NCBI GenBank assembly: GCA_963930775.1
Contig: OZ005702.1
Span: 4,960,001-5,024,000, forward strand
DNA: 64,000 bases
Direction of reading: 5' to 3'
From: Cliona cf. orientalis
Taxonomy: Eukaryota > Porifera > Demospongiae > Clionaida > Clionaidae
Shown: positions 11,416 to 57,883 of the stretch, in pieces
Position numbering within the stretch: position 1 is the stretch's first letter
Layout: every line of letters starts with the position of its first letter
Position numbers and translations under genes: made by a program
Notes under the pieces: generated by a model
Seen by the model: the letters and a program-made list of their open reading frames with translations, nothing else
Databases searched by the model: none
What the model was told of the DNA's origin: nothing

Positions 11416-11445
11416 ATATTTGTTACCGTTGGATGTGAGAGGTAA

Positions 11446-14455: not shown

Positions 14456-16248
14456 ATGCTTAAACTACGGGACACAATGGTGGACTGCGACCCCGTATCT
14501 ACCATAGCGGACACGGCTACTCCCTCTACCAACACCTCAATCCAATAGGAAGGGCCGATAGCTCCAGTCACTACTTGTATATTACTCTTGAGACTCGCAT
14601 CTAACAACTCTTGTTCACCTTCTAGCCTACGCTTTGACAACTCTTGTTCCAACTCAGCACTAGTCAGCTCGTTTACTGAGGTCACTGCATGAGAATTGCT
14701 CTCTTTGGACTTACCAGGTGCTTCTGCACTCTTTTTCTGTTTAAACTTGCAAAACTTGGCAATATGACCAAACCTATGACAAGCTCGGCACTGTATACCC
14801 TGCCCCTGTCTTCGAGGCTCACTAGATACAGGCTCACGGGACTCCTTCGCAGGCTGGGTGGACGGTTTCTCCACCTTCTTATTTTTGTTCTGTGCATCGT
14901 TCCTATCACCTGCTACTGCACTATACTGCTCCTCGCGCCGCTCCATGGTGCGCGCTCTAGCAAACAACTCGTCGAAACTCTCCTCTGTTTTAGGAGCGCC
15001 AAGTTTCCTCTGCCAGCGGGGCAGCAAGGCTTGAAAGAAACGTCCCTTTAAAAATCTGTCAAATTCTTTGCCTGTGATTGTTGGGAAGGCTCTCTTAGCA
15101 AGTTTCTGGAGCTCCAGCCCCAGCTGCTCCACTGACTGTTTTGTCTGCATTAACCCATGGAAATCCATTCCCCTCAATTCCTCTATGTCTACCGGTTTGA
15201 AACGCTTCTTGAGTGCCTCTACAGTGGCACTATAACTGGCCTTAACATTATCAGGTAGTAATCGGTAGGTCTGAAAAGCTATCTTATCCAGTGACATCTT
15301 TAAATGATAACGCTGGTGTTCCTCAGACCAGCCAGCTAGTTTACAATGCTCTTCGAATTGCTCTATCCATTTTTCAAAACTATCCTCATAAGCTTGACAA
15401 TCCTCTCCATCAAAATGGGTGATAGGGGGGAGGCTTTGCGCGGACATAGCTCTTGTCTGGGCTCTCACCATATCAGTCTGGGTCTGCACAAGCTGGGTCA
15501 ACTGCTGCATGAGTCCCTCCTCACCACTAGCAGGATTTGTGCTGACTGCACTGGCACCAGGTGTCTCACCTCCACTACTATCACTACCACCAACATGTGG
15601 GGCAACCAAGGTTGGGGAACCACCCTTCTCGCCAGTATCAGGCAGGGAAGTGTCTACTGTGGTTGCTGTACTAGCCAAGCTTGTAATAGGGGCTGGCCTT
15701 GTGGAATCCCTATCAGGGCTATCCCCACCGCCATCACTGTGACCTCCCAGGCTTCCCGCCTCGGCTGCAAAGGTCACCCTACGGCTAGCAGTATGGCTGT
15801 GCCTCTCTGCACTAACTGTAGCGGCCCCAACACCACCCGTAGAACTACTCCCATCTCCCGAGCCACTCACACTCTCAAATGGTGACTCACCCATACCTCC
15901 TGTAACTCCAGTATCCCTCACATGCTTAGCTCTCTCCTCAGCTAACTCCTTTTTCAATTCTTCCATCATGATCACGTTCCTCTCCTGTTCTTCTCGAAAT
16001 CTTTCTCGCTCTTTGTCGCCCTGGCATCTCACCTCTTCCAGCTGTCTCCTTATTTCGTCCACCGGTCGAAGTCTTTCCAGTTCCATCTGTAATTTCATCG
16101 CTTCAATCTCTGCAGCCCACTGTTCCTTTTGTTGCTCGACAACATCCTCCAGCTCCTCAATAACTTTAGATCTCTGGTCTGCTTCCTCCGACAAACGCTG
16201 CACTTGTTGTCTTTGTTCCTCGATCTCCTCCTTGGAAGCCTCAGCCAT
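14401..16248 (-). pseudogene. Gypsy 1 gag with zinc knuckle and start of protease
   Basis: An N-terminal Glu-rich coiled coil (KEEIEEQRQQVQRLSEEADQ) is followed by a Ser/Thr/Pro spacer and a capsid-like segment (YEDSFEKWIEQFEEH, YHLKMSLDK, ELGLELQKLA). A CCHC zinc knuckle (CRACHRFGHIAKFC) and the protease motif MVDTGSQSTIV come last. The protease is divided by the frame change at 14401-14455. A further open stretch at 16241-16555 continues a coiled coil upstream in another frame. Confidence 0.8.
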
Positions 16249-16580
16249 CTCCCGGCTGCGTCTCGCGAAGCTGTCTGGTTAATTCAGCTCGAACCGTCTC
16301 GAGTTCTTCTGCCGCCATTGTCAGCTTCTGCCGTAGCTCCTGAACCTCAGGTGCCTCAGCGCCATCCTCGTGCGTGTTGGAGTCACTCGTAACGGGTGGA
16401 TCCATTCTTTTCCCGCTACGCAACCTAGTGAGAGTAAGTTCAGGCGCCGCTCCGTCAGTGGTTAAGCCCTTTAGCTCTCTCCGTGACATCCACCAGTCCG
16501 AAGATCCTGGCAGGGTCGCCAATTGTAACGCCCGAGGTACGCTGTGCAGCAGCAAGCGCTTGACGAGACTTCCAGTATTA

Positions 16581-21500: not shown

Positions 21501-22900
21501 GTTTATGGAGCTTTGCTGCCACATAGATATCCTGCTTGCTCTGTTGGCTGTCTCTGCTAAGTATGGCAGAAAATAGCCCTTTTACCGGCAGGACTGCGTT
21601 ACTTGGTCCTCTCAAGGTCTGTTTGACTGGTGAGAGTGGAGGACTACCTATCTTCTTGTGCACAGGCTCTGGGATCACACTGACTTCAGCACCCGTATCA
21701 ATGTGGAATTCAACTGGCTTACCCTCCAGCTGTAGCGATATCAACCAGGGGTTGTCGTGTTCCGTCTCCACTGATCCGAGAAATACGTCATCATACTCGT
21801 AGTCATCGCATTCGTAATCGTTGCTTGCTGAATCGTGATAAACCTCCCCGACCTTTTTCTTAGATCTGCACATTAATTTGTAGTGTCCACGCTTTCCGCA
21901 TTCTCGACAAGTAGCGTCTTTGGCCGGGCAGTGTTGACGATCGTGGGGTGGTGATTTGCCACATCGACCACATACTGTCTTGTTGACTGGTTGTTTTGGT
22001 GCCTGTCGGTGATGGGGTCCCTGCTCTTTCTTGTTTGACTTGGTGGACCTCTTATGGAGATTGCTCACATTTGCTGTGGTCTCCTTTTGTGTCCCCCTTA
22101 ACGTGGGCTGCTGCTGCTTTATCGTCTCTGCCTCACGAACTTGGGTGATAGCTTTCTGGAGATCCAGCTTCTCGTCCAGCTGGAGTTTGAGCGAAAGATT
22201 TGAGTCACGTAACCCAACGACGATACGATCACGAATCATCTCCTCCTTTAAGGCACCGTAATTGCAGTGCTCTGACAGAGTATACAAGGCAGTGATGAAT
22301 GTATCTACACTCTCACCTTCTTCCTGTTTGCGCCTATTAAACACGGCACGCTCATAGATAATATTCTTTCTCTTGACAAAGTGTGAATCGAATTTATTCT
22401 TGACGGTTTCGTACTTTTTCTTGTCTTCATCTGACAGATCAAAAGAGTGAAATATGTCATCGGCTTTCTCGCCCATAGTGTAGATGAGTGTGTTCACTTG
22501 AGTCTCCTCTCCCTTTTCCTCGAGACCAGAGGCTGCTCTAAAGCGTTCGAATCGTCGAATCCATCGTGTCCACTCGTTAGGACTGCTGAAATCGAAAGGC
22601 TGGGGAGGAACAACTTGGTATGTGGCACTTGCCATACTCAGATTCAGCGAGAAAAGTGTTTATCAACGTCTAACGGCAAAATGATAGTGGATCCCGCCGC
22701 TGCCACCATGTATTACGCGGTCTTCAGTGCCGTTGACTACGATGCTAATAGATTAACTCTCAGCACACACTTCTTTAGCTATATAAGTTTCTGATGCTCC
22801 AGAGCACATGGCATGACATCATACATATTGCATCATACACATTACATAATATTATAAGTACACTCCATATATGGAGATGCACAAATCACATAATACTACA
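18529..22900 (-). mobile_element. Ty3/gypsy retrotransposon 2, apparently complete with identical LTRs
   Basis: The 192-bp LTRs at 18529-18720 and 22709-22900 show no difference when read side by side (both TGTATTACGCGG…CATAATACTACA on the + strand). The target duplication is CATGT (18524-18528 and 22901-22905). The polypurine tract (rev. comp. of TCTCCCCTTCCGGGAAATC) adjoins the left LTR. The primer-binding site, TGGTGGCAGCGGCGGG on the minus strand, adjoins the right LTR. It holds one uninterrupted gag-pol ORF. It is the youngest large insertion in the window. Confidence 0.95.
18763..22635 (-). CDS. Gypsy 2 Gag-Pol polyprotein, single 1290-aa ORF
   Basis: Order of domains: capsid-like Gag (WTRWIRRFERFRAASG, about residues 20-200); two zinc knuckles (CGRCGKSPPHDRQHC and CRECGKRGHYKLMC, about 220-260); aspartic protease (HIDTGAEVSVIP, about 314). 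RT follows (ICVDLTRLND, SKLDANSGFWQIPL, LPFGITSAPEHFQ, MIDDV active site near 587), then RNase H (SADASSFGLGAVL, TDHKPLV). Integrase comes last, with zinc finger HTGHQG…CPEC and core residues in ATDLF, ISDNGPQF and GNGEAE. Gag and Pol share one frame, unlike gypsy 1. All catalytic motifs are present, so this copy could encode working enzymes. Confidence 0.95.
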   Translation of the reverse strand: MASATYQVVPPQPFDFSSPNEWTRWIRRFERFRAASGLEEKGEETQVNTLIYTMGEKADDIFHSFDLSDEDKKKYETVKNKFDSHFVKRKNIIYERAVFNRRKQEEGESVDTFITALYTLSEHCNYGALKEEMIRDRIVVGLRDSNLSLKLQLDEKLDLQKAITQVREAETIKQQQPTLRGTQKETTANVSNLHKRSTKSNKKEQGPHHRQAPKQPVNKTVCGRCGKSPPHDRQHCPAKDATCRECGKRGHYKLMCRSKKKVGEVYHDSASNDYECDDYEYDDVFLGSVETEHDNPWLISLQLEGKPVEFHIDTGAEVSVIPEPVHKKIGSPPLSPVKQTLRGPSNAVLPVKGLFSAILSRDSQQSKQDIYVAAKLHKPLLGRPAIEALGLVQRVRGVQAKQLNPIQQFPNLFTGLGQLQGEYTIKLQEGAKPYALSTSRRVPIPLMKSVKAELERMEKLGVISKVNQPTDWCAGMVVVPKGNGKVRICVDLTRLNDSVCRERHPLPVVDQILAQLAGAKIFSKLDANSGFWQIPLSPESIPLTTFITPFGRFCFHRLPFGITSAPEHFQRRMSELLGDIEGVVCMIDDVLVHGTTPKEHDDRLYRVLCRLQQEGLTLNKEKCKFSQNTVSFLGQVIDESGVRPDPEKVNAIRNMPIPSNVGEVRRFLGTVNQMSKFAPNLADVTKPIRDLLVKGNQWVWAEPQQRAFNQVKQMLSTSPILALFDPQLDTVVSADASSFGLGAVLLQRQPEGQMKPVAYISRSMTPTEQRYAQIEKEALALTWACERFSDYLIGLVFHIQTDHKPLVPLFSSKSLEELPLRVQRFRLRMLRYQFTISHIPGKELVIADMLSRAPTNTPTGADHVLHQEANIFINTMVQGLPATDEQLEEIKRQQEEDVVCNQIKRYCREGWPAKQEVAGAVQPYYSVSAEISIANGLLLRGSRIIIPASMRLSMLDKVHTGHQGITKCRERARQSIWWPGLSRQLDELVKNCPECSKVQKQRAQPLITSSFPELPWQKVATDLFEWKHQNYLLIVDYFSRYIEIALLKGTSADEVIRHTKSTFARHGIPELVISDNGPQFSAESYAQFAKEYNFKHVTSSPYHPQGNGEAERAVGTVKNLLKKEKDPYLALLSYRSTPLQNGYSPSELLMNRKVRTVVPITREQRTPQVPDMVALKTREKQLKDDQKKHFDRHHGVRDLTQLMPGDLVWMPDRETEAVVEEEVAPRSYNVSTPGGTLRRNRRNLIRVPEGPGNGELETNETEPDQNSGNPPVRRSSRVSRPLERFDPRWS

Positions 22901-31808: not shown

Positions 31809-33148
31809 GTGAGGAGCTAGTAGCTACTAGCTATAATAATATGATCTGTCAGTATATTTAATTTGAAAATTGGGACTGTCCACTATGACATAATAATATT
31901 ATTATGATACTTTCAAGCACACACATAATTATATTACTTTTACCATAATTACCTGGCTTGCAGCAGCCCTGCACAGAGTATGAAGCATCTGTCACCACAA
32001 ATGTGGCCCAGATGGCCAATGTAGTGGGGAACACACTCAAAATAAACAGTTCTGACTGTCATAACTTTGTTTATGGCATAGGCCTCAGTAGAGATTAGGT
32101 AAAACATGTGTCTGTGGTTTAGTCATTGTATGTATAAGAGTTTTTGTAGCGGAACACTATGGCTGAGGGCTCTCCCGGGCCCTAGCTTGTATGAAAATAT
32201 TAGTACCATACATATAGGGCCCATGTTGAGTGAGCCTGAGCTCATTGACAAGAGAGCTATGAGCTGGAGTAAAAATAATGGTGTATAAAATTATCAACGC
32301 TAAAGTCACAACGGCAAATAGTGATAAATCTATACTATCACTGATATTCACTCTTTGATCACTGCACAAGTGAAACTTCACAATAATTATTAAATTTTGC
32401 TCCTCTGAGAGCATAACTCACGGTAGTAGTTTTTTGTCTGAATTGGTACACCAGGTGTATCAGCCTTTGTATCCCACCTTGATATACGGATCAAAGCTAG
32501 CTACCACCAGGGCAGTATACTGGATATAATAATATATTATTATAACAATATACTGCATGCCCTATGTCTAGGGCAGTATCATGATATTGTCCTATGGTAT
32601 AGCTGATACCTGGCCCAGTGGTCAGCACCACACTTGTAGTGTTATTACAACAGTTGAGATGCATAAAAATGATCAATTGATATTAAGCCCCATTTACACA
32701 TACAAGCTAGCTTAAGACGCTTTGGAATGCGTATTAAATTTATACATAGGACATTATGTAAGTGCCGTTAAGCAGGCTTAAACCATTTACAGATTTACAG
32801 TGGACAGTTTGCATATCTTAAAGGCCTAGTGTAAACTTAATTGCAGCTTGTAACAATCCTATCTTAAGGTATGGTTTATATTAGCTGTAAATAAATACCA
32901 ATGCACCCAGCATTGTAGCTACCTCTTATTGGGGCTCACGCATGCAGGCTATAACTACAGTAGCAAAAAAGGAGAGTAGATCCTGGTACAAGGCTACTGG
33001 AATATGAATAGACTTTATGTCTACCAGTAGCTATAGCTAGTTACTTCTTCCTTGCATAATGCACAAATATTGCACCAAGTAATGTGTATTCCTGTATGAT
33101 TGTTTGAATTCAGCTTCATTTCATAACCACTTCCCTGATTTTATATAG
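31809..33148 (+). other. NLR-A intron 1
   Basis: No coding signal. At 31955-32010 it holds a piece of the repeat ACCTGGCTTGCAGCAGCCCTG…CATCTGTCACCACAAATGTGG that recurs at 39913 and 40055. A short palindromic stretch with GGGCAGTAT words lies at 32510-32580. Confidence 0.6.
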
Positions 33149-35421
33149 GTGTTTGATAGCAGCCCTTCATGATGCAAATAGAGCAGATTTGATCGATGAA
33201 TTTCAACGTGTAGTAACACTTAAAGTACAGTGGCCTCTGATTCAGCAAACAAAGCATGACATTGCAATTGACTGGTACGGTAGCTATCTAAAGAAGCAGT
33301 ACATGGAAGTCATCTTCACCCTACAATTATCTGCCAACAAATGGCTTCCTTCACCAACACAAAAAATATTCAACCTGGCCATCATTAAGAAAGAAAAGAT
33401 CCAAAGAGGAAGAGTTAACAATGAGTTTATCCATAAAACAATCAGGGGAAAAGTTGATGACATTCTTCTAGAGAAGTCCCCCATAGAACTGAAAGACATC
33501 TTCATGAACATTGAAGGAGAGAGAAAGGTGATTCTAATAGATGGTGCTCCAGGTAGTGGGAAGAGCACACTGACTGTACACATCTGTCAGCAATGGGGCA
33601 GAGGAGAACTATTTAATGAGTTCACCATTGTGATACTCATCCAGTTACGAGACCCAAAAGTACACAGTGCACGGTCGATTGCTGATTTGCTTCCAACTAA
33701 TGATCGTACAATGGCTGAACATGCTGCTAGAGAAATAATAGCTAGCGAAGGCAGTGGTGTTCTCTGGATACTGGATGGATTTGATGAACTACCAGAGCAT
33801 ATACAAAGAAAGTCTTTAATAAGTAACCTCATTAAACCGAAACATCAAGAGAATACCCTGTCAAAAACTGCAGTGATAGTTACTTCTCGTCCGATTTCTT
33901 CAGCCAACCTTTGCCCTGTAGTGTCGTCACGAATTGAAGTATTGGGGTTCACTGTTGAGGAGCAGAGACTATTCTTTACCGAGTGTCTGAACAATGATAC
34001 AAAAGCTGTGGAAACTCTTATAGAGAGACTTAGCAGTAACCCAGCCATGGAGGGCAGCTGCTACCTTCCTCTGAATGCTTCCATTGTAGCCCATCTTTAC
34101 CTAGCCAATGGATCCCTCCCTTCCACTAGCTATGGCATATTTTCTTCCCTTGTCCAACACTTTCTCTCTCGCTATCTTCACGAACAACAGGGAGTATCTC
34201 AAAAGCTAGCTAGTTTTGAAACACTCGATGAACTACCTGACGAACTGCGCTCTTCTTTTAAACAGCTCTGTAAATTAGCATTCACTGGTGCTAGGGACAA
34301 CATGATAACCTTTTCCAGCAGTGATATACAAGCTTTAGGATTTTCAGATGAGATTTGTGAGCTTGGTCTACTGCAGGCTGCACCTAGCATTATTTCTCAT
34401 GGTAGATCAGTTTATCACAATTTTCTCCATTTATCCGTTCAGGAAATGTTAGCTGCTGTCCATGCCTCTCGAATGCCAGCCAGTGAGCAGATCTCGACAT
34501 TTGACTCCATGTTCAATGATGCTCGATTTAGTGCAGTGCTTCAGTTTTATGCAGCCATCACAAATCTTCGTACATCAAGGCCTCTCCTCACCTTAGTACC
34601 ACGTTTCTTGCGTCCTGTCCCTGCAAGCATTTATGATCTTGTTCGAAAAATTATTCGTAAAAATTCTAAGGCTCTTTTAATTTCACTTTTGAACTGCGTT
34701 TATGAGGCTCAGGACACTGAGTTATGTAGGTATGTTGGAGTACAGCTTAGTGACAAATTAACATTTTGGTCTGTATCTGAACTTGATCTTCACAGTATGT
34801 CACTATTGCCACAAGACTGCTTCTCCATTGGCTACTTCCTGGCTTCCATAGCTATTAGTTTTAAAGGCAAATTCTCAGTTGACCTCAAGTTTTGCTGTTT
34901 AAGTGATACTGGCATAAAGATTCTCATGCAAAATCTTTGCAGGAATATGGATCCTCACAGTGAAATAACTGGACAGCTTGATATGGACATAGGCCTCAAT
35001 GGTATTACTGGTGAAGGGGCTTCATACATAGCTGAGGCACTGAGAACTACAAGAGCACTGAGAAAGCTGAATCTTTGGGACAATCCAATTGGAGATAAAG
35101 GACTACATTACATGGCAGAGGCCCTAACAACCAACACAACACTTACTGAACTAAGTTTGGGAGAATGCGGACTGGGAATCACAGCAGAGAGTGCATGGTC
35201 AAGCACTTACTGAAATGCTACAGAAAAACAAAACTTTAAGAGAACTTGACTTGTCGTTTAATGAAATCATATCAGATGATGCAGAATCATATATCACAGA
35301 GGGTCTCAAGAAGAACACCACTCTCAAAACATTGAATTTAAACTTTTGCAGCATCACTGGAGAAGGCATTCGTTTGATTCAGAGTAGTACCTCAACATGC
35401 AAGATATGCTATGCAAGATAG
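33149..35421 (+). pseudogene. NLR-A exon 2: Death-domain end, NACHT, LRRs (4-nt insertion)
   Basis: TATATAG is followed by CLIAALHDANRADLIDE, the second half of the Death domain. A linker LPSPTQKIFNLAIIKKEKIQ leads into NACHT with Walker A GAPGSGKST (33543-33569), Walker B LWILDGFDELP and VTSRPIS. Winged-helix and helical regions follow, then RI-type LRRs (ITGEGASYIAEALRTT, LRKLNLWDNPIGDKGLHYMA). At 35193-35196 four extra bases (GCAT) compared with NLR-B create a stop at 35211-35213. The remaining LRR (LTEMLQKNKTLRELDLSFNE) continues in another frame to TAG at 35421. NACHT proteins hydrolyse ATP to oligomerise and signal through the death fold. Confidence 0.8.
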
Positions 35422-40449: not shown

Positions 40450-41007
40450 ATATGTATTATGCGAGTCCGTGATGATGGGCGTGGCCATTAACATCGTGGC
40501 AGCGCGGCCAATATTTTCCAGTATTAGCAAGCAATAGTAGCCACTATCATCCAGTTGATAGCGTCTTTGACACTAATATTCTTCTATCTCATGCTATTTA
40601 TCCAAGCAAGTTAATACAGTTCAGTAGTTCAGTGATAAATACTGTTAGCTACAGATAATCGATGACTAGAAGCTACTACCAACAATAAACTTACTGGCCT
40701 CTAAAATTCGCTCCCAAAACATCAGTTTCTCATTGCTACTTGGCCTAAAACAGTCTTCTTTGTCAACCAGCTACCTTCAAGAACGTGTTTAATTAGGGGC
40801 ATGGCTTCACACGTGTTAACCATAGATTATATATCCCCCCCTGTGTTAACACGCGTGAAACTCTTACGTAGCACCCCCCCCCTCCTTCAAATCCTGGGGA
40901 CGCCACTGTGTATGCACAAGTAATGTGTATTAAATTTGTGCATGCATGACAACAACTTAACTAGCCAAAGTCAATTAATTTTTCCCTTTCATAAAAAATT
41001 TATTCAG

Positions 41008-43300
41008 GTGTTTGATAACAGCTCTACACGATGCAAATAGAGTAGACTTGATTGATGAATTACGTGTAGTAACATTTGAACAAATACCAACACGCCAACC
41101 TCTGATTCAGCTGGCTAAACATGATCTTGACTGGTACGGTAGCTACCTAAAGAAGCAGTACATGGACATCCTCTTCACCCTACAAGTATCTGCCAACAAA
41201 TGGCTCCCTTCACCAACACAAAAAATCTTCAACCTGGCCATCATCAAGAAAGAAAAGATTCAAATAGGAAGAATTGACGATGAATTTGTCCACAAGACTA
41301 TCAGGGGACAAGTTGATGACATTCTTCTAGAGAAGTCCCCCATAGAACTGAAAGATATCTTCAAGAATATTGAAGAAGAGAGAAAGGTGATTCTAATAGA
41401 CGGTGCTCCAGGTAGTGGGAAGAGCACACTGACTTTATACATCTGTGAGCAATGGGGCAGAGGAGAGCTATTTAATGAATTCACTGTTGTGATACTTGTT
41501 CAGTTACGAGACCCAAGAGTACAGAGTGCACTATCGATTACTGACTTGCTTCCGTGTGAAAGTCGCTCAATTGCTGAACAGGTTGCTACAGAGATTATGG
41601 CTGTCAAAGGCAGTGGTGTTCTCTGGATACTGGATGGGTTTGACGAGCTACCATCACATCTGCAGAAAGACTCGATCATCGGTACACTGATCAGACCAAA
41701 CCTTTACCAGGAGAACCCATTATCAAAAACTACAGTGATGGTAACTTCTCGTCCAATTTCATCTGGTGACCTTTGCCCTGTGGTCTCCTCACAAACTGAA
41801 GTATTAGGGTTCACTGCTGAGGAGCAGAGACTATTCTTTACCGAGTGTCTCAACAATGATACAAAAGCTGTGGAGACTCTAATGGAGAGGCTTAGCAGTA
41901 ATCCAGCCATGGAGGGCAGCTGCTAGCTACCTTCCTCTGAATGCTTCCATTGTAGTCCATCTTTTCCTAACAGATGGATCCCTCCCTTCCACTATTTATG
42001 GCATATTTTCTTCCCTAGTCCAGCACTGTCTCTCTCGCTATCTTCACGAACGACAGGGAGTATCTCAAACGCTAGCCAGTTTTGAATCATTCGATGAACT
42101 TCCTGATGAACTGCATTCTTCTTTTAACCAGCTCTGTAAACTAGCATTCACTGGTGCTTGGGACAATATAGTGACTTTTCTAGCAGTGATATAGAAGCGT
42201 TAGGATCTTCAGACAAGATTTATGAGCTTGGTCTACTGCAGGCTGCACCTAGTATTGTTTCTCATGGTAGATCAGTTTATCACAACTTTCTACATTTGTC
42301 TGTTCAGGAGATGCTAGCTGCAGTTCATATATCTCGAATGCCAGCCAGTGAGCAGATCTCAACATTTGACTCCATATTCAATGATTCCAGCACTCGATTT
42401 AGTGCAGTGCTTCCGTTTTATGCAGCCATCACAAAGCTTCGTACATCAAGGCCTCTCCTCAGCTTAGTACCACGTTTCTTGCGTCCTGTCCCTGTAAGTA
42501 TTTATGATCTTGTTAGGAAAATTATTCAAAAAGACTCTAGGGCTCTTTTAGTATCACTTTTGAACTGCTTGTATGAGGCTCAGGACACTGACTTATGCAG
42601 GTACATAGGAGAACAGCTTAGAGACAATCTATCATTTTTGGATAAGTTACGTGGGTCTGAACCTGAGCTTTATCTTCTTGGTATGTCACTCTTACCCCAA
42701 GACTGCCTCTCCATTGGCTACTTCCTGGCTTCCATTGCTATTAGTTATAAAGGCAGATTCTCAGTTTGCCTTGGTGGCCCTTATTCTCTAAGTGATACTA
42801 ACATGAAGATCCTCATGCAAAGTCTTTGCAGGAGCCTGGATTCTCAGAGTGGAATAACTGGTCACCTTGATATGGACACATGGACCAATGAGATCACTGG
42901 AGTAGGGGCTTCATACATAGCTGAGGCATTGAGAACTACTAGAGCATTGAGGAAGCTGAAGCTAGAGGACAGTCCAATTGGTGATGAAGGACTACAGTAC
43001 ATTGCAGAGGCCCTAACAACCAACACAACACTTACTGAACTAATTCTATTCTCATGCGGACTAAGAATCACAGAGGAGAGTGGTCCAGCACTCACTGAAA
43101 TGTTGCAGCGAAACAAAACTTTGAGAAAACTTAATTTGTCATTTAATGAAGCCATATCAGACAATGCAGCATTGTTTTTCTTAGAGGGTCTCAAGAGGAA
43201 CAACACTCTCAAAACATTGAGTTTGGGCTATTGTGGCATCACAAGTGAAGGCGTTCGTTTGATTCAGAGTAGCACCTCAACATGCAAGATAATCAAATAA
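41008..43300 (+). pseudogene. NLR-B exon 2: Death end, NACHT, LRRs (4-nt insertion with stop, later 1-nt deletion)
   Basis: TTCAG is followed by CLITALHDANRVDLIDE, NACHT with GAPGSGKST, VLWILDGFDELP and VTSRPIS. After GSC the sequence CTGCTAGCTACC has a 4-bp tandem duplication (GCTA) compared with CTGCTACC in NLR-A, giving TAG at 41924-41926. A missing base at about 42173-42181 returns to the original frame, which stays open to 43300 through the LRRs (LRKLKLEDSPIGDEGLQYIA, LRKLNLSFNEAISDN). If both differences are real, only a Death-NACHT fragment would be made. Confidence 0.8.
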
Positions 43301-45888: not shown

Positions 45889-46226
45889 ATGGCATCTAAA
45901 CCGTCCCCTGAACTCAACGCGATCACGATTCGAACTCCCGATCTTATGCTAGAGTTGTCGAATGAACCGCTGGCCATGGGCGTGGCAGGGTTACTTCTCA
46001 GCAAAGGTTTCCTTTCAGGGGAGATTATATCGAAGATGCTGGGTATCACTCACACAGAGAAAGCAACCATTCTGATTGAAGCAATAAGAAATAAAATAGA
46101 GTTGGCTCCGTCAAAGTTCACGGAGCTCCTTGAGATTCTATCAGAGATGGAGTGTGCTAAAGAAGTTGTGGAGAGCCTGAGCTCTGCCTACCAAAGTGAG
46201 TTGCATAGCAGATTAGGCCACACAAA
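45889..46226 (+). CDS. NLR-C exon 1, CARD-like domain
   Basis: The ATG follows CACGTAAAG. The exon encodes about 112 residues of mostly helical sequence: LLLSKGFLSGEIISKMLGIT, EKATILIEAIRNKIELAPSK and FTELLEILSEMECAKEVVES. The pattern L…G.hS…h..hL….ha..Lh..h..+I…P..F..hL.hL matches CARD domains, which recruit partners by CARD-CARD contact. NLR-A and NLR-B have no such exon. The donor AA|GTAAAT gives phase 2, which fits the acceptor at 47819. Without splicing the frame would end at the TAA overlapping the donor. Confidence 0.7.
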
Positions 46227-46349
46227 GTAAATATTTTGTTGCTCGTCCTATAGAAATTTATATAAACTTACACAGGGGGCACGGTTGATTTTGATTGCTG
46301 TCAGAGCCAAAACACTGAGCATAAGCGAACCTTGCACACGTCTGCATGC

Positions 46350-46700
46350 TAGTCTCGCGCAGCCAGACTCTTACACCTCGGGAGGGGGAGGGAGAGAGTC
46401 TGATAAAGTGCTATACATCGCGTTGTCCCAGCGCCTGGTATGCATATGAGGCGCGACCAATCAGATTACATCTTTATGGCATTACATAGTTTGCAGTGGC
46501 ATATCCGACTGTGAACAGACGAGCTACTATTGCGCAAGCATGTTTATTCTCCGTTCACAATCGGATATGCCACCGCAAACTAAAGATGCAATCTGATTGG
46601 TTGTGGCCCGTACGAGGCGCTGGGACAACTCGATGTATAGCACTTTACCAGACTCTCTCCCTCCCCTCCTGAGGTGTAAGAGTCTGGCTGCACGAGACTA
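46350..46700. mobile_element. Foldback MITE with 9-bp target duplication
   Basis: TAGTCTCGCGCAGCCAGACT … and its inverse AGTCTGGCTGCACGAGACTA continue as arms of about 150 bp. These include GGAGGGAGAGAGTCTG, CAATCAGATT and CGGATATGCCAC inverted pairs. TCTGCATGC stands directly on both sides (46341-46349 and 46701-46709). Nine bases suit the Mutator-like superfamily. Confidence 0.85.
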
Positions 46701-46709
46701 TCTGCATGC

Positions 46710-47818
46710 AGGGTATTGATTATGTATGGAGCACTCTTACCACATGCGCAGGGCCGGAGAAAGCAATTTTTATGTTGTCAGCTAGCTGGGTAGTGGCGTG
46801 TGTAAGCATGCTGAAAGTAGTGGGGTCTGGGAGCATGCTCCCCCAGGAAAAGTTTGAAGTTTACAGTCTCAGGGTTTGCTTTTGGTAGCTTCTGAGTCCC
46901 ATTTTAACAGCCAGACACACTTTAGCTTCAAGATATCCAAGATTCGAAAATTTACAGCTAATTCCTTTAAAGGCACTCAAATGAGCTCAGTGTACAGATA
47001 GCACTAGTGGCAAATAACTAGCTATGATCCCATGGCCTATGTGGCTCACTTTAAAGTAAGTGACCGAGCTTAAATTTAGAAGACTTTAAATATTTGTGTA
47101 CTAGAGCCAAGATAGTGATACATTAGTAAAGTCTGGAGAAGCTAAGTCTCAACAACCTTCCGTTCAAATCATGAAGCGGCATGCGAGTTATTTGATGACC
47201 TTTACCACACAATTGATAGAAGTAACGATCATTACCTATCCAAACTATGAATAAATGGTCTGGTTATGGCCTGACCAACCAGACCAGCTCCGCCGGCCCT
47301 GATGCACAATAAATAATCATTTTGCTGGGAATGGGCTCTGTACCCACCAGAATCTGGCTAAGGCCATCAAACTAAGAAATGGTTTGTGTCTATATGGGGT
47401 CTAGTAGTCTTCATCTGTCTTGTGTTGAGCTCCAGGCATTTTTAGATAATTGAGGGTGCTGTATCTCACTACCTTTGTGAAATTTACCTTGAAGCACTGA
47501 CCCACCCTTCAGAGCCGTTCATGTTCTATTTAGGATGACGTAATCGGGTGAAGAAAAACTGACCCCTCAGTGTAGACTGTAGAACCAACAGGACATGTTT
47601 AAGCAATGACCCTGTGCCCTATCATGATATTTTCTCAAATTATATCAGAAATAGACGAAAGTGCGCACGGCTGGGGGATTAGAAACAAACAATTTACTTT
47701 GTGTGGCCTTGTATCAGGGGTTGGATATACATGGTATATACAAAGAGGCTTTACTATGTTAGCCATTTAGCTAGATCTGTCAGATCACCTTACTACCATA
47801 CTCAGCTATTCAGCTCAG
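46710..47818 (+). other. Remainder of NLR-C intron 1
   Basis: A decayed part of the CAGGGTTTCATTTAGG element lies at about 46810-46890 (GCATGCTCCCCCAGGAAAA). The rest shows no gene or clear repeat. Confidence 0.6.
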
Positions 47819-47988
47819 CAGTGGTGATGTCAGTCAAGGGTTGGAACCAAGCTGCCCAGTGGCGGAGGAGGCAGGAAATCAAGAGGCTGAGTTGAAAAAT
47901 GGTGCAGGAGCTCTTGAACTGTATCGACCTGAAAGTCAAATGTCAGAATCAGCTCCTGATACCTCACACGAGTCACGTCTGAAATCAG
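47819..47988 (+). CDS. NLR-C exon 2, acidic linker
   Basis: The exon joins in phase at both ends: the C at 47819 completes the codon left by exon 1, and TCAG|GTACAG leaves phase 1. It encodes a polar, disordered-looking linker (VAEEAGNQEAELKNGAG, SQMSESAPDTSHESRLKS). The call rests on splice phase and lack of stops. Confidence 0.6.
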
Positions 47989-48412
47989 GTACAGTCAATT
48001 CATGGAGAATTTGAATTTGGGGGGAGGGAGGATTAAAGCATGCTCAATAGGAGGATCTATACCTCTCAGAAATGTTTTACATCTTCTATTAGTGATATCT
48101 GGTACTGTGGACTACATCAAGCAATTCTCCGAGGGGGGAGGGGGAGGGGGTGGCGGGGGTGGGCAGTTACGTGAGTCAGAGGGGGTCTAGGTGTGCTGCA
48201 CCTTCCATATTAATCTCTGTCACTATATATGACATTTTTGACCATGGGGAGCAAAAAATTGCCTGATATGTTTTTAATTCTAAAAAAGACTGAGGACAAA
48301 CGACACTACCTACTTTCACATGTACATGCACGTGTAGCCTTGTCCTCCTTGGCTCCTTCCAGCCTTCACCCAAATTTCTGCTCTTATGTTCGCCATATGT
48401 TTGTATCTTCAG

Positions 48413-48748
48413 AGCCAAACCAAGCTAATGGAGTGAAGTTGAGTGAAAAGGACCTTGTTCACCTCATGCGACTGCTCTGGAGTTACAGCATTAAATGGGA
48501 GATGATTGGTCTCAGTCTTGGATTCATCCTACGTGAATTAAAAACCATATCTGGTATGCCTAAACTATTTGTAGGGGCTCCAGTGAGCTACCTGCAAGAG
48601 CTGCTTAGTCAGTGGGTCCAATGGCCGACAGCTGACCACCCCAGTCATCCAACTCTAGGAGCACTATGCACAGCATTACGCAGCTCTCTTGTTGGTCTGG
48701 GTAGCCTGGCTGAGGAGGTGGAAAAGGAAATGAAGCAATGTGCCACAG
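48413..48748 (+). CDS. NLR-C exon 3, Death domain
   Basis: CTTCAG is followed in phase by PNQANGVKLSEKDLVHLMRL, then IKWEMIGLSLGFILRELKTI, YLQELLSQWVQWP and TLGALCTALRSSLVGLGSLA. The W..hG..LGh…L..I…..LL..hL..W……TL..L..AL pattern is that of a Death domain. It is a different Death-domain type from that of NLR-A and NLR-B. The donor CACAG|GTAAAC leaves phase 1, which fits the AT that opens exon 4. Confidence 0.75.
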
Positions 48749-51548
48749 GTAAACTAGTTAGTCCTCATAGCAATTAATTACTTTTAATAAGCACACTTGC
48801 TTTTAAGCACGTATTTTTTAATAAGCACATACCTACTTCCCAGTATTGTCTAATAAGCACATGCTCCCAATAAAGACAACAGTAATATTCACCGTTCGAT
48901 CAAGAGTTGTTCATGCTCTGAACAAAAACTATTCATAATGTCAAACTCCCACGCCTTTAGCATCACCATGATTCTATTAGTAAGTGTACTTGTACTCGAA
49001 CAATGAGTATAGCTGTAAGGAAATGTACCATGACATTCAGTCTGCACTAAGCCCTCCCTTTTGCTGGATTACCTTTGTGGCTGCTGTATATTGATCATAA
49101 CTATGGAGGCACGACTGCAGCAAACATGCATGACAGGTAAGGTTGATTGCTGGCTACTTATGTACTGGTCAGGATTTCATTTAGGATTTTGTCAAGGGGG
49201 GGCAAAGACTATAGTATGTTTTTCCATCTGTGAAGAATGACGTGCTCATTAACTTCATTATATTATTAGCGGGATCTGGGGGTATGCTCCCGCAGGAAAA
49301 TTTTTTAATCTTTCAACCTCTGAGACTGTTTCTGGTGGCTTCTGAGCACTCGGATGGGGAAAGTCTGTCAGTAATATCCACTGGTTACCCTCTATTTCAA
49401 GTCAGATGTTGCAAGGATGTGCATAGGATGTGTCTCCTACTGTGTGTAGCGCGAAGCTTCAGCTAATTTATGGGTTAAAAATGAGCAAAACTGCCGCTTT
49501 GGACACTTTCACCGTTTAAATCTTTATTTGTGCATGTATTGCATGTATGGATGGTGGCTACTCTCAAGGGGGGGGGGGGGGGGGGGGAGAGTGACTCTCC
49601 CCGCACCCCCCTAAATGAAACCCTGCTGGTATAATATACAATATCCCTGGGATTGGGGACACAGTGGACTGTATAAGTAGACTAGCTATACAACATGTGA
49701 GTACTTCCAGTTCGTGTCCAAGGCGTAGTATCCTCGATACAGATGGCCGAATATCATGATCAACCACAAAGATTTAGTCAAATCATTTTCAACTCTCTGG
49801 ATAACCTGATGTGAAGACTACTTAGGCATCTGGAAACAAATACCACCAGTATAATATTTGCTTGACTAATTATTACCGCGTTAATTGCAATGTTATTATC
49901 ATGATAATTGAAAATAATTATATATATTTAATAGCGTACTGTTATAGTATGAATAGCTCTGTTACAGTACTCAGACTGAGATTACCGTACCCTCATCGTA
50001 ATAATATTATTCCACTCTACGGAAGAAGTTACATTTCATCAACTATCTTCATTGCTAAGATAATGGAGCCAATTGCTCACCAATCAACTGCTATACTTTT
50101 TGCTAATTGTGGCTAGCTCAATGTTAGCTCTCTGGACACACCTGATGCCAAAGGTTTAGATCTGAGCACTTTGACCTCAAGAGTTGCCCGGTGCCGTCTT
50201 ACATCATGAGGGTGGGGGCATAAATCATAGTGAGAGGCATACATTATAGCCTGCTAACTGGTCATCCCTTTTTGTTAGCTTGCTTGCCAACATGCAGCAT
50301 TTCATGCAAGAGCTTCGTCAGGGTGGGGACATGTAGGCAGTGAGTGTGTGAGGGGAAGTGGCGTAGAGCATAGGAGTCGGTATACACTGGATCGACTCAT
50401 GCTTTATACACTATATAGCTAGTTGTTCTGTTTGTTACCATGCTAGCATGTACAGCTATACGTACCTTGCCAGTTTATATCTCAAATGAGGTGGCATTGC
50501 CATAGGATTCTTTATGGCGTTTTCAAGAATCTGGTTTATCCTTTCAGCTATATTTGCTGGCTATCTCTGCCTTCTTTACTTGCTTCTTGATAATGCAAGC
50601 TCTCGATAAACAAAGACTCAAAGTGGATGGCAAGAGGTTCACTGCTGAAATCTTTTGAAAAAGTACTATTGCATGATGTTTGAGTGCACAACATCCTCAT
50701 CACCTCATCTGTTCAAAAGTTAATGACATATACATTTGGCCCAGTTTATTGTGTTGATTTCTTGCATGTTCGACTGTGTATATATGCGAATGCTATTGAA
50801 ACATGACATCACGGGTATGATTGACAATCTGTATGGTTGTGATGGACAAGTAATATTTGCTACATATATTTTATTATTAGATTATCTGGAAGTGGAAATT
50901 AAGTTCCTAGCATTTGCATAAATGAAAGTATACTTGTATGGGTTTGGGTTTGGGTTGTCTTACTCTGCTCCCCTGTGATTAAGTTCTATTTTTGTCCACA
51001 TGAAACTTGCCAGACCTGTATCATGGTTAGTGACTTATGCTTCAAATCAGAATCATTGACCTATTAGCATCGGCATGAAAATTTATTCTGTTCCCCTGTG
51101 AAACTTGCCAGATCTGACCAGTTGCACCTTTTATTGGGATCATGAATACCATGTGTGTGAACTGTCCGTACATTTTGGATTAGAATTGAGTGGCCACACC
51201 TATCAATTGCACCGCCAGTTGATTCTGTAGCTATTACTAATTTAAAACTGCACGTGCTCGAATTCAGTATATAGGTTAGGATTCTGCCGCAAACTGATCT
51301 ATTGCTTCTATAGCATACAATGCCAAGCAGATATGTGCTTTAGAGATCTCTGTTGTAGCGTTACTGTCTTCATGCGTAATTGCAGTCATAACTATAGCTC
51401 TGCCCTGAGTGATCTGCACTTGCATGAGTAGTACCTAAACACAAAAATTAATGCAAAAATTTGGAACACGGAGTTATCCTTTTTTAATTATTAGTGTAGG
51501 GAATGTTGGCAATTCAGGTATATTGCATGCATTTCCTTTTGATTTTAG
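48749..51548 (+). other. NLR-C intron 3
   Basis: Apart from the MITE at 49170-49625, this 2.8-kb intron shows no gene. It is AT-rich with short repeats (TGAAACTTGCCAGA twice at 51002 and 51100). Confidence 0.6.
49170..49625. mobile_element. MITE with CAGGGTTTCATTTAGG ends, copy 2
   Basis: Starts CAGGATTTCATTTAGGATTTT and ends CCTAAATGAAACCCTG. It is flanked by CTGGT on both sides. A run of about 19 G lies at 49569-49587. Confidence 0.85.
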
Positions 51549-54500
51549 ATCAACTGGACCAAGTTGGTGACAGAGGCAGCTATGAACCAGCAGACATAGC
51601 CAGCAAAATCGAAGAATTAGAAAATCGGTTTGATGATCTCCAAACTAGAATTATAAATGAATTATCTACTAAGCCAGGCATAACTGCAAAACAGTTATTG
51701 AGCAAATTAACACGACTACCACTATCACTGAGAAAAGAGTATGAATCTTCGTTAGCAAAACGTATTCATAGAATGCTTAAGGCGACACAGATTAATGACC
51801 TATTTATTGTTCACCTCAATGATCTTAGCTCATTTATGGATTATGGATTAATTGAGTACTTTATTAAACAGTATGGTAGTGATGGCTTAAAGAAAGATAT
51901 GGTATTGTATTGCAGTGAAATGGTAGTGTTTATGAAAGAGACAACAATTGAACAACTAAGAGGTCATTTGCCAGGTGAACCTGAAGTTCCACCAAAATTT
52001 TCTTTGTTGAAGGCCAAAATTGGTGAGGATCCCAGCAAATACACTTTAGAAGAAGTTAATATAATTAGAAAACAATACTGCAGTAAACTAAAGCTGTCTG
52101 AGATAGTCTTACATCTATTGACATTTAAAGAGTCCGAGTCCTTCATTGTTTGGTGGGTGGTACCATCAGCTCTTGTTTCTGACATAATGAACTCGGTCGG
52201 AACTATTGACCAAAGCTTCTACCAGGAGTACAAAATCACCTCCCTTACCCTGGATGGAATGTGGCTATTCTTGAGTGAGTCTGAGATTGATGCAATGTGG
52301 TTGAAGATGCGAGTGGGTGACACAGAATTAAGTGATCAATTCCATATCATGCACAAGCAAATATTGTGTGAGGTAGATAGAATAGGAAGATCAACAGCCA
52401 CTGATAAGTTGTCATCATATTTGGTGGACCAGCAACCAACCCTTCAACGGAATGTAAGTGTCAAGATCAGCAAGGCAATTTTAAGCCCCAACTTCCCTAT
52501 ATCCCCGATAGACTTCAGAATGCTTACCATTGTAATAGAACTGTCTGGTAGCGATTCCTTGAAGAGGGTAATGGAATCCTATTGTCGCTTTATGTCAACC
52601 TTTGTAAAGCAGTCAACTTCAGAGCAGCTTATAGACTTGTCACCCATCCAATCAAGATCTTCTGAAGATTTCGTTACAGCTGAGTGTAAAATCAAAGGTG
52701 AGCCCTTTGAATATGGATTAGAAAAGCTTTTTGAATTTCAGACACAATTCTGCTCCATGAATAAGATCGACAAAGTGTGTTTTATTATGGGTAAAGTAGA
52801 TAAGAAAATGAGTGGTTCATTCACTCTTAACTGGCATATACCATCAGCCGCAGTTTCTTATATAGTGAAACAATATCATACCAGAAATAATATTTCCCCT
52901 GGCTTTTATAAAGAGTACAAAATCACCTCCCTTACCCTGGATAAAATGTGGCTATTTCTGAGTGAGGCTGAGATTGATGCAATGTGGTCAAAGATGCGTG
53001 TGGGTGACACAGAATTAAGTGATCAATTCCATATCATGCACAAGCAAATATTGTGTGAGGTAGATGGAATAGGAAGATCAGCAGCCACTTATAAATTGTC
53101 ATCATATTTGATGGACCAGCAACCAGACCTTCAACAGGATGTAAGTGTCAACATAAGCAAGGCATTTTTAAATTCCGATTTTCCTGTATCTCTGATAAAC
53201 TTCAGAATTCTTACCATTGTAATAGAACTGTTTGGTAGCAATTGCTTGAAGAGGGTAATGGAATCCTATTGCCGCTTTATGTCAACCTTTGTAAAACAAT
53301 CAACTTTAGAGCAGCTTATAGACTTGCCATCCATCCAGTCAAGAGTTCCTGAATATTTCATTACAGCTGAGTGTAAAATCAAAGGTGAGCCCTTCAAATA
53401 TAGATTAGAAAAGCTTCTCAAATTTCAGACACAATTCTGCTCCATGGGTAATATTGACAAAGTATGTTTTGTTATGGGTGAAGTATGCAAAGCAATGAGT
53501 TGTTCATTCACTGTTAACTGGCGTATACCATCAGCTGTAGTTTCTTACATAGTAAAATTTACCAGAAATATTTTCTCTAGCTTCTATCAAGAATACAAAA
53601 TCACCTCCCTTACCCTGGATGGAATGTGGCTGCATATGAGTGAATCAGAGATTGATGCAATGTGGTCAGAGTTATATGTGAGTGACGCAAAATTTAAAGA
53701 CCGGTTTCGCACCATGTGCAAGCAAATAGTGTATGAAATGAAAGTGCAAAATGTGTCGAAGGATGATTTATCATTGTACTTTCAGACACTACATTATCAA
53801 CCACAAATACGCGATCAGTTAAGTCTGGCAGTCTTGAATTATGAGCTCCCTGCATCTTTTGTAGACTTTGGAGTCCTTAAGGCTGTTATAGAGAGGTTTG
53901 GTAGTGATTGCTTGGAGAGAGTGATAGAGTCCTATTGCAACTACATATCAATCTTCACAATGCAATCAACAGCACAGCAGCTAATAAACTTGTCAGCACT
54001 CCAGTCTGAGCATTGGAAATATTTTGTAGCAGCCAAGTGTAAAATTATGATAGAGCCTTCACACTGCAGATTAGAAAAACTGCTCCAGTTTCGAACCAGA
54101 TTCTGTGCGATTCCCAGGTTTAATCAAGTATATTTTATTCTGGATGAAGTCAACATTGAAATGAGCGGTTCATTCACTGTTAGCTGGCTTGTACCATCAG
54201 CACTAATTTCTAATATTATAGTGAAATGTGCCAGATATGTTGACCAGAGATTCTATCAAGAATACAAAATCACCTCCTTTACCCTGGATGGAATGTGGCT
54301 GTTCTTGAGTGAGGCTGAGATTGATTCAATATGGTTGAAGATGCGTGTGGGTGACACAGAATTTAATGATCAATTCCATATTATGCACAAGCAAATATTA
54401 TGTGAGGTAGATGGAATAGGAAGAACATCAGCCACCGATGAGTTGTCATCGTATTTGATGAACCAGCAATCAACCCTTCAACAAGATATATGTGTCAACA

Positions 54501-57500
54501 TAAGCAAGGAAATTTTAAGCCCCGACTTCCCTATATCTGTGATCGACTTTAGAGCACTTACCACTATAATAGAACTGTTTGGTAGTGATTGCTTGAAGAG
54601 GGTAATGGAATCCTATTGCCACTTTATGTCAACCTTTGTAAAGCAGTCAACTTTAGAGCAGCTTATAAACTTGTCACCCATCCAGTCAAGAGTTCCAGAA
54701 GATTTCCTTGAAGCTAAGTGTAAAATCAAAAGTGAGCCCTTTGAATATGGATTAGAAAAGCTTCTTGAGTTTCAGACTAAATTCTGCTCCATGATTAATA
54801 TTGACAAAGTGTGTTTTGTTATGGGTGAAGTAGGTAAAAATATGAGTGGTTCATTCACTATTAGCTGGCGTATACCATCAGCTGTAATTTCTTACATAGT
54901 AAAATTTACCAGAAACATTAAATTTTCCCCTAGCTTTCATGAAGAATACAAGATTGCCTCCCTTACTCTGGATGGAATGTGGATATTTCTAAGTGATGCT
55001 GAGATTGATGTATTGTGGCATCCAAGCCATTTTGAATCTCAGTTCCTCAACATGTACAGACAAGTTGTGTATGAACTAAAAGTGCAAGAAATATCAAAGA
55101 ATGAGCTATTATCATATTATTTGACAGAACAGCAACCAAAACTTCAAAGTAATGCAAGTATTCAATTAAGTGAGGCATTTCTAGAGCATGAGTTCCCTTT
55201 GTCAGTTTTAGACTTTAGAGTGCTGTCCATCGTCATAGACAAGTTTGGCGGTGATTGCTTGAAGAGTGTAATGAAATCATTTCATAACTATGTGATATCA
55301 ATTTATACGAGAGAGTCAACTGTAGAGCAACTAGTATCTTTGCCACCAATCCCATCTCAGCCTTCCAAATATTTCATATCCGTAGAGAGTAGAAACAGAG
55401 AAGACCCTACAAATTGCAGACTAGCAAGACTGCTTGATTTTCAAGCTAGGTTCTGTGCCATTGTTAATATTGAAGAAGAATGTTTTATGATGGATAAAAT
55501 AAAGGCAGAAACAAGTGGCTCGTTTGTTGTTAGGTGGTATGTGCCATCCAACCTAGCATTGGATTTACTAAAATCTGCTAATCAACTTGATCTTGAGCAG
55601 ACTGAGCTCTTTCAAGAAATGAACATAGCTTCACTACAGCTTGGCAGTATGTGGTTGTATAATTATCAACTAACACCACTTGGTATTCAACTAAAGAAAC
55701 GATACCAGCAGTCCCAGGGCTCACCATCTCCAGTTGAATGGATTCCTTCTCCAACAAAAAAAATATTCCGACTAGCTATGATCCAGAGAGAGAGAGTGCA
55801 ACAAGGTCATATTGAAGACAGATTTGTACGAATGAGCATCAGTGGTAGGGTAGATGATATTCTTTATGCTAAATCTCCAGTGGAACTTGAACACATCTTC
55901 AGAAACACACTACATGGAGGTGAGATCATTTTGATTGAAGGAGCCCCAGGGTCTGGCAAGAGTACTCTAACAGTCCACATCTGTCAGAGATGGGGCAAAG
56001 GAGACTTATTTCAACAATTCACTGTTGTGATCCTTGTCCAGTTACGAGACCCAGCAGTGCAAAGAGCACAGACCATAGCTGACCTGCTTCCTATTGAAAA
56101 TGTTGAGGAGATAGCTGCTGAACTGATAGCTACTAATGGACGTGGTGTCCTGTGGGTCCTTGACGGGTGGGATGAGCTCCCACCTCACCTACAGCAAGAC
56201 TCCATATTCTGTCAACTTATCAAGAGAATGCTTAGTGAATGTTCAGTGTTAGTCACCTCTCGTCCAATTTCATCAGGTGACCTACACCCAGTGGTCTCTT
56301 CACGAATTGAGGTGTTAGGGTTCACCCCAGAGGAGCAGAGGCAGTACTTCACTGAGTGTCTCAAGGGAGACACCAAAGCTTTAGAAGCCCTACTTGAAAA
56401 GATCCAACAGAATCCTGTGTTACAAAGCATTTGCTACCTTCCACTCAGTGCTGCTTTCATAGTATACATTTTCAAATACAGGGATCAATCACTACCCAAC
56501 ACTGGGTATGAGATCTACTTATCAGTCATTCTCAGCTGCATTCAACGACATTATGACAGGGAGGGCAGAGGTCATGACCTACCTAGAGAGCTAGCATCTT
56601 TAGATGATCTTTCAAGGAGTGAAGCAGTGAGAGAGCCTTTTCAGTGTCTCTGTGAGCTTGCCTATCGTGGTGTGATGGAGAACAAAGTGACCTTCTCTTC
56701 CAGTGACTTGCCTCAAGGATCCAACACACTCAGTCTTCTTCAAGCAATAGAGAGCTTTCTCCAAAGTGGAAATTCAGTGTTCTATAACTTTCTTCACCTA
56801 TCAATCCAAGAAGTCTTGTCTGCCTATTACATGACAATAAAGTTGTCAGATAGTGAGCAGGTGTCTCAATTCCAGCAGTTGTTCAACCAGCCTCGTTTTG
56901 CTGCTGTGTTTCAGTTTTATGCTGCCATCACCAAGTTGAAGAGTCCAGGGATACACCAAGTTATTGATAGAATATTAGAAGCCAAGTCCAAGCCTCTCTT
57001 AGTGTCTCTTCTTCGCTGCTTACATGAGGCTCAGGATCCTGCCCTCTGCCTTTATGTAGCTGAAAGACTAGAGCGTATTAAACTAAAATTAAATCTTAGT
57101 GAGACCTCACTCAGTCCACTGGACTGTGTCTCTGTTAGTTTTTTCCTCTCCTCTGTTGCTGGTAAGGAAATCAGTATTAACCTTAAGCACTGTGCTATTG
57201 GTAATCTTGGTGTGAACTACTTATCAAAGTATGTACATACAGATAATAATTTGGAACATGTCAGTAAAATAATCATAGACCTAACTGACAATGAGATTAA
57301 CGAAGAGGGTGCTTTACATATCACTAACATGCTTTACTTGTTTGAACATTTATATATGTCGTATAATCCGATTGGAGACACTGGAGCATCCTTGATATCT
57401 GAAGCTATGAGAGAAACTGCTACACTCAAAACTTTAATCCTTTATGACTGTCGCATCACTTCAAGAGGAGCTGAAGATCTTTCAAGAGCACTAGCTCAAA

Positions 57501-57883
57501 ACAATTCCCTGGAAAAATTGGACATTGGTTGGAACGATCTAGGAGATGATGGAATAAGCCACGTAGCTGAGGCCCTCAAACAAAACAAACAACTGAAGGA
57601 ACTCTGGATTGGTGAGTGTGGAATGACTGACAAAGGAGCACATTCTCTGGCCAGTGCTCTCAAAGTCAACGATTCTCTCAAGATGTTGCATATGGGTGGA
57701 TGTAAAGTAAAATTAACAAAACATGGACTTTCAGCAATAGCTCATTCATTAGCTAACAACTTGGTGCTTGTGAAACTTGTAATCCCTTTCAACTTTGGTT
57801 CTACCACTATTACTGGTTTAAATCTTAAGGTCAGTGAAGCAAGGAAGAAAAATGGACTTCCACCCATTGAAGTTGAAGGTTAG
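51549..57883 (+). CDS. NLR-C exon 4: six tandem modules, NACHT, LRRs
   Basis: One 6.3-kb exon opens after GATTTTAG. With exons 1-3 the protein is about 2392 aa, against about 900 for NLR-B. Six copies of a roughly 225-aa module follow each other. Each has a helical half (DFRxLTIVIELFGSDCLKRVMESY, then FMSTFVKQST.EQL), a middle LEKLLEFQT.FCS, and a beta-rich end (SGSFTxxWxIPSA, then EYKITSLTLDGMWLF). The EYKITS anchors are at 52226, 52913, 53591, 54260, 54944 and 55616. NACHT follows with linker WIPSPTKKIFRLAM, Walker A GAPGSGKST (55940-55966), VLWVLDGWDELPP and VTSRPISSGDL. A helical region comes next, then RI-type LRRs (about 57280-57780) and the tail NGLPPIEVEG. At the end, GAAG|GTTAGT could serve as a donor, as in the paralogue at 229; otherwise TAG at 57881 is the stop. 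All signature residues for ATP binding are present. I cannot name the repeated module. Confidence 0.85.

Follow-up and report, generated by a model that had tools for sequence, protein, structure and literature searches.

Receptors of the nucleotide-binding, leucine-rich repeat (NLR) type usually follow a scheme of effector, nucleoside triphosphatase (NTPase) and sensor. In the sponge Dysidea avara, NLRs have been sorted by whether they carry a CARD, a DEATH domain or neither, into the classes NLRC, NLRD and NLRX (PMC12909245). A second point of reference is the TRADD-N domain, which according to the text of PMC8195603 is hugely expanded in the sponge Amphimedon, is usually present in single copy, and is marked by an RNA-recognition-motif (RRM)-like fold with a tiny residue and a serine in the turn between strands beta2 and beta3. 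TRADD-N has been posited to contact both flanking domains, hold them inactive and switch through this serine (PMC8195603). Here we describe a gene in a 64-kb piece of Cliona cf. orientalis DNA, hereafter the window (contig C14, positions 4960001-5024000; genome of 217 Mb in 149 contigs), whose family places an adaptor-like array of variable repeat number between the first two parts of the NLR scheme. By a narrow preference, we read it as one NLR-type receptor in which a predicted CARD and a likely Death domain are followed by six predicted TRADD-N-like modules, serving as a multivalent docking or relay array, and by a NACHT domain and leucine-rich repeats (LRRs), with its size changed by module duplication.

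The core of the gene is one open frame at 51500-57883 of the window, which at 2127 codons is far longer than expected by chance and holds the six modules, the NACHT domain and the LRRs. An earlier, sequence-only reading of this DNA had proposed such a frame, and its length, its internal repeats and Pfam matches bear this out (Table 1). A NACHT domain with a P-loop and C-terminal LRRs, the parts by which an NLR is recognized, are both present, and an N-terminal death-fold effector in the same protein is likely in view of conserved splice sites, conserved gene order and a predicted CARD fold. The array is visible as DNA repeats with a start-to-start spacing of 666-687 nt and as an SFxVxWxxPS-like motif at residues 214, 440, 669, 891, 1118 and 1341 of the open frame, and its six modules of about 225 amino acids align over 256 columns. 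Modules 2, 3 and 5 share 84.8-87.3% DNA identity, compared with 45-67% in the other pairs (45-61% where module 1 or module 6 is involved), which suggests recent duplication or exchange.

The sequence-only reading had further joined three upstream exons to this frame, with phases 2/1, 1/1 and 1/1 and a product of 2392 amino acids. Four exons and a single open frame were recovered here, as were the 1/1 junctions; with the preferred sites, however, all junctions are in phase 1, and the joined frame encodes 2386 amino acids with one stop, at its end. Donor 46195/46196 (AAA/GTGAGT) was preferred for exon 1 because it was found in all 15 distinct CARD copies compared, whereas a second donor 31 nt downstream, 46226 (GTAAAT), which fits the phase 2 of the sequence-only reading, was found in 8 of the 15. 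The second donor occurred in none of five Death-less genes, and in locus L027 it is preceded by an in-frame TAG. Together with acceptor 47818 it yields an open frame of exactly 2392 amino acids, and it is a possible alternative end of exon 1. Exon 2 is 73-88% identical in six other Death-bearing genes, where its CAG/GT donor is conserved; no copy of it was detected in any of the five Death-less genes compared or in Death-bearing L043. The start of exon 3 at 48413 follows from an acceptor AG that falls in one column in 8 of 8 aligned copies, and its donor is likewise conserved. An in-frame TAA occurs in 7 of the 12 top Death matches, and in the aligned copies it lies upstream of that AG. For exon 4, 13 of 16 loci share the codon at which the acceptor AG lies (L029, L039 and L043 differ). 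Skipping of exons 2 and 3 preserves the frame (2213 amino acids), as does skipping of exon 2 alone, and isoforms are therefore possible. Owing to the phase-1 junctions throughout and this in-frame skipping, exons 2 and 3 look like a symmetric cassette that is present in some genes of the cluster and missing in others. A shorter protein could also start from an in-frame ATG at 51527, just 5' of the exon 4 acceptor.

The order of these parts recurs along C14. Exon 1 as a query matched 70 places, 47 of them on C14, and module 1 matched at least 162 places; for the Death exon, the best 150 of 348 candidate places were considered. On C14, 42 of the 47 CARD copies are followed, in the same orientation and ahead of any further CARD, by a first module, and in at least 9 of these 42 a Death exon lies between the two. 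This count took in all 47 CARD rows, 23 NACHT rows, 49 module rows judged first-type among the matches listed and 15 of 32 Death rows, the 17 weaker ones being left out, with the Death rows drawn from those best 150 candidates. A module lay no more than 6 kb downstream of a CARD in 28 of 47 cases, and a CARD no more than 6 kb downstream of a module in 1 of 49. Because the order recurs in 42 of 47 copies and the splice sites are conserved, the CARD and Death exons very probably belong to the same gene as the module-NACHT-LRR frame. Many matches to module 1 were also seen on C6, C10, C11 and other contigs, mostly 32-41% identical, often clustered and mostly in frames of about 240-370 amino acids. 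At L027/L028 (C14 5286629-5306628), the Death exon contains a stop and the first modules have frame breaks, and a long open array and NACHT frame persists downstream of the broken parts; our guess is that such copies are losing their output end first.

Both upstream domains had been named in the sequence-only reading. The AlphaFold2 model of exon 1 has the CARD-type helical fold, with the APAF-1 CARD as its best match, and on this basis exon 1 is a predicted CARD. The CARD profile PF00619 gave one weak match among 14 copies (E 0.15), and a PDB profile search gave none. For exon 3, a Death domain is likely: the Death profile PF00531 matched 1 of 7 copies weakly (E 0.0099), with no match in the window's own copy, and a PDB profile search returned nothing credible. 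The CARD alignment took 58 of 120 listed matches (192 found), and the L027 copy was left out of the Death-exon alignment for its internal stop. Profile-profile comparisons of the modules with the CARD exon, of the modules with the Death exon, and of the CARD with the Death exon all gave nothing; for this reason, the helical half of the module was not adopted as a further death fold.

For the modules themselves, a confident AlphaFold2 model of two units (predicted local distance difference test, 86.2; predicted template modelling score, 0.80) shows six helices in each, together with a two-layer, RRM-like domain of order beta-alpha-beta-beta-alpha-beta. In module 1 the predicted strands (E) and helices (H) of this domain are E150-157, H166-179, E188-194, E198-205, H206-218 and E229-234 (plus E237-241), and they are repeated in module 2. 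A serine occupies the beta2-beta3 turn in 285 of 306 modules; the position ahead of it holds Gly in 144 of 307 modules, Asn in 81, Asp in 50 and Ser in 13. Thus, the predicted fold and the serine motif point to TRADD-N-like modules, and not to modules of a wholly unknown kind as had been supposed, although profile searches did not confirm this. The structural neighbours of the modelled module are ferredoxin-like, and Foldseek returned only weak matches for the two-module model (best E 0.012, low TM-scores). Searches of Pfam, NCBIfam and PDB profiles with the module gave only scattered sub-threshold matches to unrelated families, with 25 of 27 families listed in each of two of these searches, and the PDB profile search with modules contained no TRADD chain. 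Among 25 of the 27 families listed for 32 module sequences, TRADD-N was absent; one module alignment took 27 of 50 short module proteins and five of the six window modules. A search of the whole genome with PF13820 (NCOA6_TRADD-N) found no match and was silent in the control genomes as well, so that it carries no information. In many relatives the precomputed domains include PF27087 and PF27514; our own Pfam scans gave neither.

The gene does not stand alone: a protein search found 82 related frames, the window's own (P0002) included. These include records 100% equal to frames of the source genome and possibly alleles, and hence do not stand for 82 independent genes. With a 151-position module profile and a cut of more than 100 bits, there was one module in 2 frames, two in 25, three in 13, four in 15, five in 13, six in 9, seven in 3 and eight in 2; a looser 10-bit cut gave 2 to 9 modules, fragments included, and the 100-bit counts were preferred. 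All counted modules were N-terminal to the first NACHT in 82 of 82 frames. In a tree of 307 modules, one clade of 76 takes 75 of the 81 first modules, and the nearest neighbour of a last module is another last module in 80 of 81 cases (largest nearly pure clade, 50). Among inner modules, 38 of 145 have their nearest neighbour in their own frame, where shuffling gave 2.0 on average and at most 8; the window's inner modules are outside these 38 and have their nearest neighbours in P0028 and P0040. Since first and last modules cluster by position and these 38 inner modules pair within their own frame, the arrays tend to preserve their distinct ends and to vary in the interior.

Constraint was assessed by median pairwise ratios of nonsynonymous to synonymous substitution (dN/dS), which are averages over whole stretches. 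These were 0.41 for the CARD exon (91 pairs), 0.56 for Death (21), 0.89 for the linker exon (10), 0.30 for module 1 (3), 0.39 for NACHT (28) and 0.50 for the LRR part (21). Modules 2-5 of the window ranged from 0.34 to 0.61 among themselves (median 0.46, 6 pairs). Of the four exons, the linker has the least secure coding status, and its ratio of 0.89 alone is no proof of coding. Mean column entropy was 1.34-1.63 in inner and last modules, compared with 1.06-1.12 in first modules, and several core positions (G, W, C, F and S) are nearly fixed. One alignment of relatives took 33 of 132 related proteins.

Other arrangements were also seen among the relatives. At least two P-loop-bearing NACHT units share one open frame in 12 of the 82 related frames, and in P0037 (3698 amino acids) the modules are followed by four consecutive NACHT stretches. 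By our own NACHT profile, 51 of the 82 frames have multiple stretches, and only P-loop-bearing stretches were kept for the tandem count; no description of a "tandem NACHT" was found in the literature searched. P0061, one frame of 2563 amino acids, has two modules, NACHT and LRR followed by a long ankyrin array, and in P0117 (436 amino acids) a module is joined to ankyrins. L035 and L037 (95.2% and 99.95% identical to P0070, respectively) have two modules, NACHT and LRR in one frame and, at the C-terminal end, a COR-A match below threshold together with a Death-like match, the latter hinting at a second, C-terminal place for Death.

In the receptor that we favor, all four exons would be spliced into one protein. 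Ligand would be sensed by the LRRs and the NACHT domain would oligomerize with ATP, which would cluster CARD and Death and bring in partners of the caspase or adaptor type through homotypic contacts. At rest, the sheets and serine turns of the array might hold the two ends apart or inactive; once open, the array could offer several adaptor-binding sites, on the model proposed for the single TRADD-N domain (PMC8195603). The array would thereby multiply the TRADD-N surface and fix the distance from output to motor, with the phase 1-1 linker and Death cassette as an exchangeable second output. The sequence-only reading had suggested a rigid or multivalent stalk, of which we infer that "multivalent" fits better. 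Because related frames have one to eight modules, the family likely tunes the number of dockable partners. A more specific proposal, that the array of 1-8 units sets signal gain or reach by repeat number and that a swappable phase 1-1 Death cassette picks the output, we put forward only tentatively and with some doubt. If this proposal is true, TRADD/TRAF-type and CARD/inflammasome-type adaptor logic would be combined in a single polypeptide. As the array varies and the Death exon is present in some members only, the strength and type of output could evolve apart from sensing. Furthermore, if the modules are TRADD-N, the single-copy habit of that domain is broken here, and the natural variants with 1-8 modules form a series for asking whether signalling scales with module number.

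The variable array could also be understood as the sensing part. In that case the modules themselves would contact ligands from pathogen or self, serving as a built-in decoy or a variable recognition array, and the LRRs would be secondary. The span of one to eight modules, the duplication of some inner modules within a frame and the greater entropy of inner and last modules agree with this, and high column entropy in expanded TRADD-N families has been read as diversification (PMC8195603). However, the whole-stretch dN/dS averages of modules 2-5 lie near that of the LRR part and not above 1, and several core positions hardly vary, so we regard a sensing array as unlikely. The wide range of module counts and the close similarity of modules 2, 3 and 5 would likewise suit a passive spacer or a neutral expansion, whose length is altered by unequal crossing-over with little consequence. 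This we judge quite unlikely, as dN/dS in the modules is below 1, the first and last modules keep a position-specific identity, and the serine and tryptophan are conserved.

In a further reading, exons 1-3 would form a CARD(-Death) gene of their own or be remnants in decay, with the NLR starting near 51.5 kb. The gene model rests on sequence and not on transcripts, the ATG at 51527 would provide such a start, 5 of the 47 CARD copies have no downstream module before the next CARD, the Death copy of L027 contains a stop, and the linker dN/dS is 0.89. Set against the recurrence of order and strand in 42 of 47 CARD copies, the conserved splice sites and phase in the loci compared, and a median dN/dS of 0.41 in the CARD exon, we consider a separate upstream gene highly improbable.

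Table 1. Features of the candidate receptor gene (positions in the window)
Feature	Position	Strand	Remarks
Exon 1	45889..46195	+	predicted CARD; 102 codons + 1 nt; starting ATG kept in paralogs shown
Exon 2	47806..47988	+	linker exon; 61 residues; phase 1-1
Exon 3	48413..48748	+	likely Death domain; phase 1-1
Exon 4	51549..57883	+	module array, NACHT and LRR; stop 57881-57883
Module 1 (first-type)	51581..52315	+	repeat alignment; first-type clade
TRADD-N-like alpha/beta half of module 1 (predicted)	51992..52273	+	model residues 148-241
Conserved Ser, beta2-beta3 turn, module 1	52139-52141	+	between E188-194 and E198-205 of the AlphaFold2 model
Module 2 (inner)	52316..53002	+	DNA identity 87.3% to module 3, 85.5% to module 5
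Module 3 (inner)	53003..53680	+	DNA identity 84.8% to module 5
Module 4 (inner)	53681..54349	+	DNA identity 66-67% to modules 2, 3 and 5
Module 5 (inner)	54350..55033	+	DNA identity 84.8-85.5% to modules 3 and 2
Module 6 (last-type)	55034..55696	+	repeat alignment; last-type
NACHT	55925..56362	+	PF05729, E 4.2e-22, over cut-off; own-genome match 8.4e-22
P-loop GAPGSGKS	55940-55963	+	within NACHT
Leucine-rich repeats (approximate span)	57425..57880	+	PF13516 (LRR_6), E 1.9e-12, over cut-off; C-terminal to NACHT

Elsewhere in the window, NACHT and LRR mark two more NLR genes or gene remnants, at 33108-35213 and 40979-43300, both on the forward strand and with no module array in the frames scanned; the latter extends across several frames and seems to have decayed. 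On the reverse strand, 18763-22659 holds a retrotransposon in one frame of 1298 codons, with reverse transcriptase, RNase H, gag, protease and integrase matches, and 10492-16278 another, with reverse transcriptase and RNase H over several frames. A reverse-strand frame at 23146-24141 matches Tc-type transposase helix-turn-helix and paired-box-like domains, and at 6803-7235, within an open frame of 264 codons, an 84-bp unit is repeated in tandem (5.2 copies, 97% matches).

Every part of the window gene is of a known or nearly known kind. APAF-1 and CED-4 have an N-terminal CARD before a STAND (signal transduction ATPases with numerous domains) NTPase, as does the window gene by its predicted CARD fold. 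Their NTPase is of the NB-ARC type, with WD40 repeats in APAF-1, and we know of no TRADD-N-like array in either. TRADD combines TRADD-N with a death-fold domain in a single chain, as predicted for the window gene, and to our knowledge has neither NACHT nor LRR. Its order is the reverse, with TRADD-N at the N-terminus and Death at the C-terminus (PMC8195603), whereas in the window gene the death-fold domains come first. In Amphimedon and other invertebrates, the TRADD-N proteins of the NCOA6 clade likewise carry one or more N-terminal Death-like domains, then TRADD-N and a variable C-terminus, and have an RRM-like fold, as predicted for the window modules, and a serine in the beta2-beta3 turn; there, however, TRADD-N tends to be a single copy between globular domains (PMC8195603), in contrast to the six tandem copies before NACHT in the window gene. 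The Amphimedon C-termini named in the text of that paper, Figure 4D aside, are ankyrin, SH3-LRR, kinase, caspase and others, and NACHT is not among them (PMC8195603). In the literature searched (text, with figures and supplements aside), no description was found of an NLR with TRADD-N in tandem, nor of the whole architecture, and the CARD-Death-modules-NACHT-LRR layout recurs in paralogs; to this extent the earlier claim of a new layout holds. The Dysidea study has an internal repeat (RPT) in its Figure 2 legend, and no tandem module between a death-fold domain and NACHT was found in the text consulted (PMC12909245). The NLRs described there likewise have NACHT and LRR with an N-terminal CARD or DEATH, in large species-specific expansions that are in part clustered, yet CARD and DEATH fall into separate classes (PMC12909245), whereas the window gene very probably joins a predicted CARD, a likely Death domain and six modules.

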